From the NCBI GenBank assembly GCA_019751755.1, contig JAIENA010000006.1:1-64000 (forward strand): a stretch of DNA of 64,000 bases, given 5' to 3'. This DNA comes from Burkholderiaceae bacterium (GTDB lineage Bacteria; Pseudomonadota; Gammaproteobacteria; Burkholderiales; Burkholderiaceae_D). The notes beneath the pieces were generated by a model that saw only the letters and a list, made by a program, of their open reading frames with translations, had not been told where the DNA came from and made no database searches. Shown here piece after piece: positions 35,895 through 61,553 of the stretch (positions within the stretch are counted from its first letter, which is position 1; each line of letters starts with the position of its first letter). The translations under genes and the position numbers were made by a program.

Positions 35895-35956
35895 TCAATG
35901 TCTCCAAATTATTACTCGGGACACCCCTTGTGGGAGCGCCGCCGCGAAAATCATAC

Positions 35957-35990
35957 TTGGGTGCCAGGCCTTTAGGCCGGGCATCCGCAT
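35957..35990 (-). repeat. GGATGCCCGGCCT repeat, copy A
   Basis: On the minus strand the element reads GGATGCCCGGCCTAAAGG followed by CCTGGCACCC. It lies 88 bases after the hppD stop, in the same sense as that gene. The inner pairing is GGCCT/AGGCC, and GGATGC can pair with GCACCC apart from one position. The same element recurs at 45868, 56241, 61384 and 61426. Confidence 0.75.
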
Positions 35991-36077
35991 AGCAAATTGA
36001 CTTCTCTGCACCGCCCGGTGGATTCAGGGTAGCACAGCCAGGCGCGCCATTCTGCCGTGGCGCTGCCGAATAAAACC

Positions 36078-45800: not shown

Positions 45801-45867
45801 AAAGAGCCTCGCAACCGCGCGTTGAAAAGGACCGCAAGCGCGGCCCCTTTCAACGGCGTGGACAACT

Positions 45868-45896
45868 ATGGGTGCCGAGCCTTCAGGCCGGGCATC
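45868..45896 (-). repeat. GGATGCCCGGCCT repeat, copy B
   Basis: On the minus strand GATGCCCGGCCTGAAGG is followed by CTCGGCACCCAT. It begins 7 bases after the ahcY stop in the sense direction of that gene and lies between ahcY and the DUF360 gene. Confidence 0.75.
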
Positions 45897-45902
45897 AACA
45901 TA

Positions 45903-47333
45903 TTAATAACGGTAGTGCTCAGGCTTGTACGGGCCTTGGACTTGCACGTTGATGTAGGCTGCCTGCTCTTCGGTCAAGGTGGTCAGCTTCGCGTTCAGCG
46001 TTTTCAGCTGCAAGCGGGCGACTTTCTCGTCCAGGTGTTTCGGCAAGGTGTACACGCCGACTGGATACGCCTGGATGTTGGTGAACAGTTCGATCTGGGC
46101 GATGGTCTGGTTGGCGAACGACGACGACATCACGTACGACGGGTGGCCGGTACCGCAACCCAGGTTCACCAGGCGGCCTTCGGCCAGCAAGATGATACGT
46201 TTGCCCGAAGGGAAGATCACGTGGTCAACTTGCGGCTTGATGTTTTCCCACTCGTATTTCTTCAGCGCCGCCACATCGATTTCATTGTCGAAGTGACCGA
46301 TGTTGCAGACGATGGCCTGGTCTTTCATGGCCAGCATGTGCTGTTCCGTCAGGATGTGGTAGTTGCCGGTGCAGGTCACGAAGATGTCGCCTTGCGATGC
46401 GGCTTCATCCATCGTCACCACGCGGTAGCCTTCCATCGCCGCTTGCAGGGCGCAGATCGGATCGATCTCGGTCACCCACACTTGCGCCGACAGCGCGCGC
46501 ATGGCCTGGGCCGAACCTTTGCCGACGTCACCGTAGCCGGCGATCACGGCGATCTTACCTGCGATCATCACGTCGGTGGCGCGCTTGATGCCGTCCACCA
46601 GCGATTCGCGGCAGCCATACAGATTGTCGAACTTCGACTTGGTGACGGAATCGTTGACGTTGATGGCCGGGAAGGCCAGCTTGCCATCCTTGTGCATCTG
46701 GTACAGGCGGTGCACGCCGGTGGTGGTTTCTTCGGTCACGCCCATGATTTCCGGCAAGCGCTTGGAGTACCAGGTCGGATCAACAGCCAGGTGGGCCTTG
46801 ATCGAGTTGAACAGGCAGATTTCTTCTTCCGAACCCGGGTTGTCCAGCACCGAAATGTCTTTTTCAGCGCGCACGCCCAGGTGCAGCAGCAGGGTGGCGT
46901 CGCCGCCATCGTCCAGGATCATGTTCGAGTACACGGCATTGCCGGCGGCGTCGTTCGGCCACTCGAAGATGCGGTGCGTGTAATCCCAGTAGTCAACCAG
47001 GGTTTCGCCCTTGACGGCAAACACCGGCGTGCCAACGGAGGCGATGGCGGCGGCGGCGTGGTCCTGGGTCGAGTAGATGTTGCACGAGGCCCAACGCACT
47101 TGCGCACCCAGTGCTTCCAGCGTGCGGATCAGCACGGCGGTCTGGATGGTCATGTGCAGCGAACCGGTGATGCGCGCGCCTTTCAGTGGCTGGGCGGCGG
47201 CGAATTCTTCACGGATGGCCATCAGGCCAGGCATTTCCGTTTCAGCAATCTTGATTTCTTTTTCGCCCCATGCGGCCAGGCCGATGTCAGCGATGATGTA
47301 GTCTTGCGACGGTTGGAATGCGGCGTTCATCAC
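45903..47333 (-). CDS. ahcY: S-adenosylhomocysteine hydrolase
   Basis: NAD-dependent enzyme of 476 residues splitting S-adenosylhomocysteine into adenosine and homocysteine. The Rossmann loop is [14 protein letters not shown]. Substrate residues are in [12 protein letters not shown] and the [15 protein letters not shown] segment; the conserved C-terminus is [10 protein letters not shown]. Its length includes the roughly 40-residue insert common in proteobacterial members. AGGAGG lies about 7 bases before ATG 47333. An SAH riboswitch precedes it, so expression should rise when the toxic product accumulates. Confidence 0.97.
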
Positions 47334-47359: not shown

Positions 47360-47427
47360 GTAACGTGAGCGCGGTTGCAGAAATCCGAGCCTGGCGAACA
47401 CTGTGGTTCGTCGCAACGCTCCTCGGA
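47360..47427 (-). promoter_or_regulatory. SAH riboswitch controlling ahcY
   Basis: On the minus strand the leader begins CCGAGGAGCGTTGCGAC, then a small hairpin, then GCCAGGCTCGG, and after a short linker AACCGCGCTCACGTT. This order (CCGAGG pairing with CTCGG, GGAGCG pairing with CGCTC as a pseudoknot) is the conserved core of the SAH aptamer known upstream of ahcY and related genes in beta- and gammaproteobacteria. The 5' end lies 7 bases after a TAGAAT -10 box. Ligand binding would expose the ribosome site about 30 bases downstream. Confidence 0.88.
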
Positions 47428-47433
47428 ACATGC

Positions 47434-54941: not shown

Positions 54942-56237
54942 ATGAAGGCCAAGTTACTCGCAGCTGGTATTGCCGCCGTTTTCGCCGCCCCTGCCATGGC
55001 GCAATCGTCCGTGGTCATTTACGGTATCGCCGACGCCGGCATCATGTACGTCAATAACGGTGGCGGCGACTCCAAGACCAAACTGGTCAGTGGTATCGCC
55101 GACGGTTCGCGTCTCGGCTTCCGTGGCACGGAAGACATGGGCGGTGGCTACAAGGCCATTTTCAACCTGGAAGCCCGGGTTGAACTGGACAACGGCAAAC
55201 AGCAAGCGGGCAACCTGTCCAGTAACCAGACCGTGGCCCTGACCGAAGGCTTGAACTACAACATCCCGGCCGCCGCAGGTGGCGCCGCCACGGCCGCCAA
55301 GCTGCTGGCCGGCGTGCAATCGGCGCTGAACCCGGCCGTCAACGTCAACATCAACAACGCGCTGTTCGACCGCACCTCGATGGTCGGCCTGATCACGCCG
55401 GTGGGCGCGGTCCTGCTGGGCCGCATGTACACGCCGGGCTATGAAGTGCTGGCGGCGGGCGACGTGTTTGAATCGGGCACGGCGGCCGGCTGGGGCGGCA
55501 TCGTCGGTGGCACCGGTGGCTTGCTGACGGCCGGCGTGTCGATCCGTTCCGACAAATCGGTCCAGTACCGGATTGAAACCCCGTCCGGCATCAAGGCCGC
55601 GCTGATGTACGGCTTTGAAAAGTCGGGCTACATCGGCATGGACAAACGCACCTGGGGCGGTAACGTGCGCTATGTGGCCAATGGTTGGGACGTGGGCTTC
55701 GGCTACAACTACGGCACCGACCAGGTCGGCGCAAAAGGCCTGGTGACCACCACCCTGGCCGGCTCCTACAGCACCGGTCCGTGGAAGGTATTCATGGGCG
55801 CCCACAAGCAGCAAAATCCGAATTCCGTGATCATCCGCTACGCCATGGATACGCTGGCGCCGACCTTTGCCGGATTCGGCACGGTGCTGGGCCCAATGCT
55901 GTCGGCACAAACCACCGCCGCGCTGAAACGTAACTTCAACCTCGATGCGATCAGCTACCAAGCCGGCTTCCACTACAAGATGGGCGAAGGCCGCCTGATG
56001 GCGTCCGTGGTGCGTCAGGACGACAAGCGCGCCGACGCCAGCGATGCGACCCAGTATGGCATCGGCTACGACCACAACCTGTCGAAGCGCACCGACGTGT
56101 ACCTGATCGGCGCGTACATCAAGAATGAAAACGATGGCCAGTATGCGATTGGCGCAGCCAGCGCCTCGGGCGGCTTCACGGCCAAGCCTGGCATGTCCAG
56201 CAAGGGCGTGCAGATCGGCATGCGTCACCGCTTCTGA
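54942..56237 (+). CDS. outer-membrane porin (Gram_neg_porin type), second copy
   Basis: Porin of 431 residues, about 60 longer than its neighbour. The signal peptide MKAKLLAAGIAAVFAAPAMA precedes QSSVVIYGIADAGIMYVNNG. The extra length is mainly an Ala-rich segment in the first third (about 105-150, NIPAAAGGAATAAKLLAG), probably an enlarged extracellular or constriction loop. The last strand ends in MRHRF. GGAGA precedes ATG 54942. It has its own terminator, so the two porins can be expressed separately. Confidence 0.94.
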   Translation: MKAKLLAAGIAAVFAAPAMAQSSVVIYGIADAGIMYVNNGGGDSKTKLVSGIADGSRLGFRGTEDMGGGYKAIFNLEARVELDNGKQQAGNLSSNQTVALTEGLNYNIPAAAGGAATAAKLLAGVQSALNPAVNVNINNALFDRTSMVGLITPVGAVLLGRMYTPGYEVLAAGDVFESGTAAGWGGIVGGTGGLLTAGVSIRSDKSVQYRIETPSGIKAALMYGFEKSGYIGMDKRTWGGNVRYVANGWDVGFGYNYGTDQVGAKGLVTTTLAGSYSTGPWKVFMGAHKQQNPNSVIIRYAMDTLAPTFAGFGTVLGPMLSAQTTAALKRNFNLDAISYQAGFHYKMGEGRLMASVVRQDDKRADASDATQYGIGYDHNLSKRTDVYLIGAYIKNENDGQYAIGAASASGGFTAKPGMSSKGVQIGMRHRF

Positions 56238-56240
56238 TAT

Positions 56241-56273
56241 GAGGATGCCCGGCCTGAAGTCGCGGCACCCATC
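56241..56273 (+). repeat. GGATGCCCGGCCT repeat, copy C
   Basis: GAGGATGCCCGGCCTGAAG is followed by TCGCGGCACCCATC. It begins 4 bases after the second porin's stop, in the sense direction. Confidence 0.75.
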
Positions 56274-56360
56274 GCTTCTGTAGGCTCTTCCTGCTGGCGG
56301 GCTACCCTGGCCCGCCGACTTCCCGACAGCGCGCCGCCACCCGCGGTGCGCTGGCTCCAG

Positions 56361-59972: not shown

Positions 59973-61358
59973 GTGGGGCTGTTTTCTCTATTCAAAAAAA
60001 GCAAAGACAACGCCGCCGGCAGCGACGAGGCCGCCGCACGGCTGGCCGCCGACAGTACATTCCAGCGCCAGCAAGCCCATGCGAAGCTGCAGCGCGATAT
60101 CGCCCGCGCCACCGCACTGAAGATCGACGCCATCGAAGCGGCCATGGAAGCCGACATCTTCAATGATGTGGAACCGGCCGGGACTCCGCCGCCGCGCCCG
60201 CGCCTGCCCGACACGGCTGCTGAAGCGGCCGCCGATGCGGACCATCCCGACACGCTGCCGCTGCTCGACGCCCCCACCACCTTGCTGCTGGCCGAAGATG
60301 ACATGCCGGTGCCGGCGCCCAACGCCGCCACCGCGCCCGTCATCGATGAAAGCGCGATCCTGTACGCCAATGGCCAGGCCGATGTGGCCGGCCACCTGCT
60401 GGCCGGCGCCATTGCCGACGCCGCCAGCGCCGGCCACCCGGCGCAGCAAGACCGCCTGCCCTGGTGGCTGCTGTTCGACCTGTACCAGGCCACCGGGCAG
60501 CAGGACGCGTTCGACAAGCTGTCGATCGACTACGCCAGCACCTTTGAAACCTCGCCACCGCCCTGGCGCGACATGCGGCCGGCCGACGCGGCGATCGAAG
60601 CGACGCCGCGCGACAGTGGCGTCACGCCCAGCCACGTATTCGCCGCCACGCTCGATGCGCGCAGCGCAGCGCCGCTGCAACTATGGCGCGCGCAGGCCGG
60701 GACCGCCCCATTGCTGCGGCTGGACTTCAGCCGGATTACCGCCTGCGACGCTGCCGGCTGCGCCGTGCTGCTGGCACACTTGCAGGCGCTGGTCGCGGCC
60801 AAGCGTGAGTTGATCGTGGTGGCGGCGGACCAACTGGTGCAACTGCTGCGCGCAACGACCTGTGTCGGCCACAAGGACGATGGCGCCGCCACCTGGCTGC
60901 TGCTGCTGGAATTGCTGCAATTGCTGAACCGCGAAACGGCATTCGAAGAAGCCAGCATGGATTACTGCATAACGTTCGAAGTCTCGCCGCCCTCGTTCAC
61001 GCCGCCCTACCAACTGGAGACGGCGGCGCGCCAGCGCGTGGCGGCGCCGTCCGAGCGCTTGATGCTGCCGCCCGTAATCGACGGCAACCTGGCGCCGCTG
61101 CTGGCCACCATCACCGCCTATGGCGCGCAATACCACGCGCTGGTGTTCGATTGCCGCCATCTGGCGCGCATGGAATTCGCGGCCGCCGGCCAGTTGCTGG
61201 TGCATGTGCAGGCGTTGGTGAAGCCGGCGGAGGCGGCCTCGGTACCGGCACCCGGCCCGCGCCGCGTGGAATTCCGCGAAGTCAACCACCTGGTGGCAGC
61301 GCTGATGCGGCTCTTGGGCTACACTGCTGTGGGACGTATTTTCGCCCACAAGTATTGA
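59973..61358 (+). CDS. STAS-like protein with an internal duplication
   Basis: Soluble protein of 461 residues, starting at GTG 59973 after a strong GGGGAG. A charged N-terminal region and an Ala/Pro-rich linker (about 70-120) are followed by two units. Each has a helical segment ending in a shared motif (AFDKLSIDYASTFETSPPPW at about 187-206; AFEEASMDYCITFEVSPPSF at about 325-344). Each motif is followed by a STAS-like alpha/beta domain (LLRLDFSRITACDAAGCAVLL; YHALVFDCRHLARMEFAAAG). STAS domains bind nucleotides or partner proteins; the role here is unknown. It lies between dksA and hslVU. Confidence 0.78.
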   Translation: MGLFSLFKKSKDNAAGSDEAAARLAADSTFQRQQAHAKLQRDIARATALKIDAIEAAMEADIFNDVEPAGTPPPRPRLPDTAAEAAADADHPDTLPLLDAPTTLLLAEDDMPVPAPNAATAPVIDESAILYANGQADVAGHLLAGAIADAASAGHPAQQDRLPWWLLFDLYQATGQQDAFDKLSIDYASTFETSPPPWRDMRPADAAIEATPRDSGVTPSHVFAATLDARSAAPLQLWRAQAGTAPLLRLDFSRITACDAAGCAVLLAHLQALVAAKRELIVVAADQLVQLLRATTCVGHKDDGAATWLLLLELLQLLNRETAFEEASMDYCITFEVSPPSFTPPYQLETAARQRVAAPSERLMLPPVIDGNLAPLLATITAYGAQYHALVFDCRHLARMEFAAAGQLLVHVQALVKPAEAASVPAPGPRRVEFREVNHLVAALMRLLGYTAVGRIFAHKY

Positions 61359-61383
61359 ACCCCGTTGTTGAGCTGCTTAATAT

Positions 61384-61457
61384 GAGGATGCCCGGCCTAA
61401 AGGCCCTGCACCCATTGATAACGACGAGGATGCCCGGCCTGAAGGCCCTGCACCCAT
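61384..61457 (+). repeat. GGATGCCCGGCCT repeat, copies D1 and D2 in tandem
   Basis: Two copies (61384-61415 and 61426-61457), each GAGGATGCCCGGCCT, then AAAGG or GAAGG, then CCCTGCACCCAT, are separated by 10 bases. They begin 26 bases after the STAS-like gene's stop, in the sense direction, and lie before hslV. The two copies differ at one base. Confidence 0.8.
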
Positions 61458-61553
61458 TGCTAAAACCGCTTGCAATTTCCTGCATGAACCCCATTTGCTC
61501 GGCTGGCGCACAAGTCGACTCGCACACCGTGCGCCCTTACTTTGAGGTCTACA

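Follow-up and report, generated by a model that had tools for sequence, protein, structure and literature searches.

REPINs are inverted doublets of repetitive extragenic palindromes (REPs). In Escherichia coli (REPtron Ec) the REP carries a tag 5' of a bulged hairpin and CT is the cutting dinucleotide; the transposase TnpAREP cuts at CT, either 5' or 3' of the REP, and requires both the GTAG tag and the stem bulge, and the spread of REP sequences is called poorly understood (PMC8266576, available portion). GTAG-tagged REP families lie between unidirectional and convergent open reading frames (ORFs), near upstream 3' ends, with termini that often supply the stop codon (Di Nocera et al., 2013; available portion of PMC3733652), and GTAG or GTGG tags are placed 0-2 nt from the REP hairpin in the available portion of PMC6006769. 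Here we describe a repeat found in a 64,000-nt stretch (the window) of the genome of a Burkholderiaceae bacterium (GCA_019751755.1; contig JAIENA010000006.1, positions 1-64,000), which is a new family of this known kind: real, recently mobile and REP-like. We consider it probable (roughly 0.72) that this is a miniature mobile element of the REP type, ~40 bp long, moved in trans by a REP-associated tyrosine transposase (RAYT) and persisting mainly where an insertion is of little harm.

Like the E. coli REP as far as the available text of PMC8266576 describes it, the element combines a bulged hairpin with a putative 5' tag and CT, but this tag is GTGG or GAGG rather than GTAG and no transposase gene was found flanked by it. 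It resembles the GTAG-tagged families (PMC3733652, same limit) in being a short extragenic palindrome with a putative GTRG-like tag and matching placement, a comparison made by description and not by consensus sequences. In this new family the putative tag pairs with the element's own tail and clusters run head to tail. REPINs (PMC3116915), too, are units derived from REPs that are non-autonomous and spread inside a genome. The present element, however, occurs singly or in direct arrays; each of the 17 clusters runs head to tail and none is of mixed orientation, so the inverted REPIN doublet is not seen. Among titles and abstract openings, nothing relevant on REP sequences or RAYTs of these bacteria and no description of the element was found, with most subscription papers outside that coverage.

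The original prediction, made from the letters of the window, listed five copies behind stop codons, all in the sense orientation of the gene just ended, and proposed a role in the 3' untranslated region (UTR). All five copies are present and oriented as claimed (model coordinates):

35952..35994, minus strand: copy 1, following hppD, sense
45863..45905, minus strand: copy 2, sense, directly 3' of ahcY and ahead of metF and a holin-like gene
56235..56277, plus strand: copy 3, directly 3' of a porin gene, sense, at a site common to Pseudoduganella ginsengisoli
61378..61420, plus strand: copy 4, unit 1 of a tandem pair upstream of hslV
61420..61462, plus strand: copy 5, unit 2 of the tandem pair, with a 42-bp period

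The four sites are indeed all sense to the gene just ended. Distances to the stop are 90, 4, 4 and 26 nt from model position 8, against 88, 7, 4 and 26 as first given. Pfam supports the names hppD, ahcY and porin, as well as the HslV identity of the gene downstream of the pair; the name STAS-like has no such support, as the ORF in question (59973-61358, plus strand, 461 aa) matches no Pfam family at E<=1e-5. Rfam at the gathering score returned only four tRNAs and one S-adenosylhomocysteine (SAH) riboswitch in the window, with no match to the element. A 13-mer with <=3 mismatches gave 46 window matches (shuffle mean 38.5, sd 6.3), which is not above chance. The whole element does exceed chance: its core pattern, GRTGCCNGGCCTNAAGGCC, occurs 37 times without mismatch in the genome, and the reversed control not once.

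The element is a bulged hairpin of ~40 bases, approximately CT|RATATG[TA]GGATGCCCGGCCTRAAGGCCC[GT]GCACCCATGTT. Across 143 distinct copies, the stem spans positions 8/37 to 20/25 and is usually mismatched at 11/34 (A.C in 102) and 16/29 (C.C in 130), a bulged stem of the long REP type. Of the cells in this hairpin 76% are paired, compared with 20-51% after a slide of 1 or 2. The 8/37 pair is T-A in 75 copies and A-T in 16. Compensatory cells number 34 (shuffle mean 14.7, maximum 25), a count that is weak because a +1 slide gives 71. Median folding energies on the two strands are -17.7 and -20.5 kcal/mol versus -10.2 for mono-shuffled copies, and in 125 of the 143 the better fold is that of the antisense strand. 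Near the 5' foot, 109 single copies have GTGG (56), GAGG (20) or another sequence (33) at the tag position. The ends are near-symmetrical.

A covariance model built from 27 copies, which match it by construction, gave 79 matches in the window genome at E<=0.1. At E<=1e-4, among 60 sampled genomes of the genus, there were 70 matches in the window genome, 71 in P. ginsengisoli (G017) and 11 in P. rivuli (G070), with none in the other 57; the search applied strict filters and scored no more than 106 candidates in any genome. A 22-base pattern run against the genome collection found 40 stretches, which apart from two contigs of metagenome-assembled genomes belong to P. ginsengisoli KCTC 42409 and P. 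rivuli FT92W (G041/G070); the two contig matches were set aside, both lying inside a called gene, as was a lone match in G002, ~2.6 kb from a RAYT and likewise inside a called gene. No exact match to a 24-base pattern was seen in viral contigs, and the 92-base tandem pair was not matched in plasmids. The element is a short palindrome in many copies that is mostly extragenic, as expected of a REP. Three pairs of contigs of the window genome (C245/C372, C271/C393 and C497/C501) end inside direct element arrays and share the unit with their partners, so that longer arrays probably break the assembly. In P. rivuli, element arrays flank both sides of one gene in a co-directional run that is possibly a nar operon (L192 3013-3999; name by eye).

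Comparison of close relatives shows gain or loss of the element in whole units. The window genome and P. ginsengisoli, mostly 82-95% similar in the flanks, have 13 common sites with both flanks aligned and identical orientation in all; a further pair (L135/L148) is rearranged and was left out. Of 26 sites taken from the window genome, all but L118 and L126 aligned on both flanks, and these 24 are all element-free in P. ginsengisoli, an emptiness that is expected because the 26 are the best-scoring of 36 chosen for having no matching element flank in G017; the new information from the alignment is that the two flanks are found together in that genome. L084 and L022 denote a single site, and the 24 alignments therefore represent 23 sites. 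Between alleles the difference amounts to roughly one unit or one array, with further changes close by at several sites. P. ginsengisoli has no element at the place corresponding to copy 2; at this ahcY site, as at L068, a different hairpin occupies the element's position in that genome. The tandem pair upstream of hslV is absent from 29 other loci of the genus. In the window genome, shared copies fit the consensus less well (median 40.1 vs 52.0, p=0.01), and in P. ginsengisoli there is no difference (52.8 vs 51.3, p=0.9).

Positions 0-1 at the left junction are CT in 50/109 single copies, compared with 5% in flanks, and in 47/101 once copies with their sense stop at these positions are excluded. 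Of 22 sites, four are homologous to the empty allele as far as position 1, namely L067 and L084 (both CT), ahcY (TT) and L080 (CC), so that CT is kept in the empty allele at two of the four; at the other 18 the flanks diverge earlier. The query ended at position 1, so this shows that homology reaches that base but not that it stops there; one base further on, three of the four sites differ, and at ahcY three more bases agree. No length or offset stands out as a target duplication.

Placement was analyzed for 146 elements, 80 from the window genome and 66 from P. ginsengisoli, at a position weight matrix threshold of 18; model matches of G017 outside the fetched stretches were left out, and genes were called with a codon-usage script. 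The elements occupy 124 sites, of which eight were dropped (seven at contig edges and one, the only such case, inside a called gene), leaving 116 with a called gene on both sides: 91 in tandem, 10 in convergent and 15 in divergent gaps. Divergent gaps are depleted relative to their 36% share of intergenic length (p=5e-8) and, more weakly, to their 21% share of the number of gaps (p=0.02). A stop codon lies within 20 nt at 64/116 sites and a start at 27/116, and the tandem sites are nearer the stop in 65 cases and nearer the start in 25 (one tie; p=3e-5). The link to gene 3' ends seen in the window is therefore borne out, but the orientation is not: tandem sites are 35 sense and 56 antisense (p=0.04; the window genome contributes 18:28 and P. 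ginsengisoli 17:28), or 34 and 47 with shared sites counted once, which is not significant (p=0.18). Sense-only orientation was rejected on this basis, and the four sense sites of the window are small-number luck. The two observations that the original prediction named as fatal to it were random orientation, which was found, and the lack of a link to stop codons, which was not. Gene ends are favoured and direction is not kept, and an element that faces either way beside gene ends looks like REP-type mobile DNA and not like a direction-specific gene-end signal.

Four genes or fragments of PF01797 occur in the window genome: an IS200-like gene, two RAYTs that we name RAYT-A and RAYT-B, and one fragment. 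RAYT-A (C519:49535-50137) keeps NHVH and the tyrosine motif and is apparently intact; its orthologues in P. rivuli (82% identical) and P. ginsengisoli (78%) are open to their stop. It was detected only in the three element-carrying species, its orthologues scoring 127-130 bits in a RAYT-B-based search of the genus, and 46 other RAYT loci have at most 51% identity to it, including the listed non-RAYT-B matches down to 96 bits. RAYT-B (C435, L223 3534-4226) has orthologues of 57-100% identity in 59 of the 60 genus genomes (best 36% in G074, which is 60% complete), with 87-90% among the three species and 76% in the next genome. Its HUH motif is changed to DCVH and it looks domesticated; for this change and for its presence in 59/60 genomes it was set aside as the element's enzyme. 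A third RAYT of P. ginsengisoli (L218) lies between repeats of the form GGGGTCAGGCGTGCATTC, and these other repeats led us to set it aside too. We infer the link between element and transposase, with RAYT-A as the best candidate. RAYT-A and a neighbouring methylthioadenosine/SAH nucleosidase gene (C519, L224 2000-4600) are found amid repeats with TTATCCAC, which we take to be close to DnaA boxes.

Under the REP reading, single-stranded copies would be cut and joined at CT in trans by an HUH tyrosine transposase (RAYT/TnpAREP), for which RAYT-A, found only where the element is found, would be the best candidate. Copies would survive next to stop codons mainly because little damage is done by inserting at such places, divergent and promoter-bearing gaps would be purged of them, and direct arrays would arise by local duplication; transcribed copies may form hairpins, any effect on mRNA being a by-product. 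Several observations weigh against this account. Since the three species are closely related, the co-occurrence of RAYT-A and the element counts as one event. No copy of the element flanks RAYT-A in the scanned stretches of 10-15 kb, and RAYT-A is instead adjoined by other GTGG-tagged hairpins of different sequence; the likeness of its flanks to the element is no better than that of shuffles (141 and 45 of 200 reach the score). Elements are also lacking beside RAYT-B and the L218 RAYT, and beside the scanned members of 46 other RAYT loci (39 of them and L218 at threshold 12, and L290; L343-L347 lay outside the scan). Half of the copies have no CT at the junction, and in the fold the tag positions are base-paired to the tail, with 8/37 varying between T-A and A-T, whereas REP tags are described as unpaired. 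A bolder reading, less likely than not, is that RAYT-A moves this REP family in trans despite the different hairpins around its own gene, the ~40-bp differences then being natural transpositions of single REPs into CT targets.

Other explanations fit less of the evidence. Near-symmetrical ends, short size and presence or absence as a unit would suit a miniature inverted-repeat transposable element moved via its inverted ends by a DDE-type insertion sequence and not by an HUH enzyme, but the lack of a target duplication signal, together with CT at one junction and the tag, fits REP processing better and makes this improbable. Somewhat less improbable, though still unlikely, is a mobile element with an additional, selected role at its sites as an RNA hairpin formed by either strand, for example shielding upstream messages or uncoupling operon genes: 91 of the 116 classified sites are in co-directional gaps, close to stops, and both strands fold far below mono-shuffled copies, but tolerance of insertion accounts for identical placement and the antisense excess loses significance when shared sites are counted once. 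Least likely of all is a sense-oriented 3'-UTR RNA signal for processing, stability or termination, kept by selection on host genes. The proximity of stops, the stable hairpin and the four sense sites of the window speak for it, but the genome-wide orientation largely refutes it in that respect, most sites are not common to the close relative and the element is confined to three species.

The REP reading thus replaces the idea of an orientation-specific 3'-UTR signal. Two related genomes that differ by many ~40-bp units with CT-enriched junctions would be a natural record of REP insertion, one that comes with a named candidate enzyme and with CT, the dinucleotide that REP transposases cut in vitro. 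If RAYT-A does transpose lone copies, a single REP, and not the inverted REPIN pair, can be a spreading unit.

Outside the element, just downstream of the tandem pair, lies one further feature:

61469..61496, plus strand: sigma-32-like promoter sequence upstream of hslV

By eye, most of the loci inspected show similar sequence ahead of hslV, and insertion of the tandem pair beside this promoter-like sequence may affect heat-shock control. Sequence similar to the 461-aa ORF likewise precedes hslV in most loci inspected. The SAH riboswitch (RF01057; window 47360-47430, minus strand) is located upstream of ahcY.
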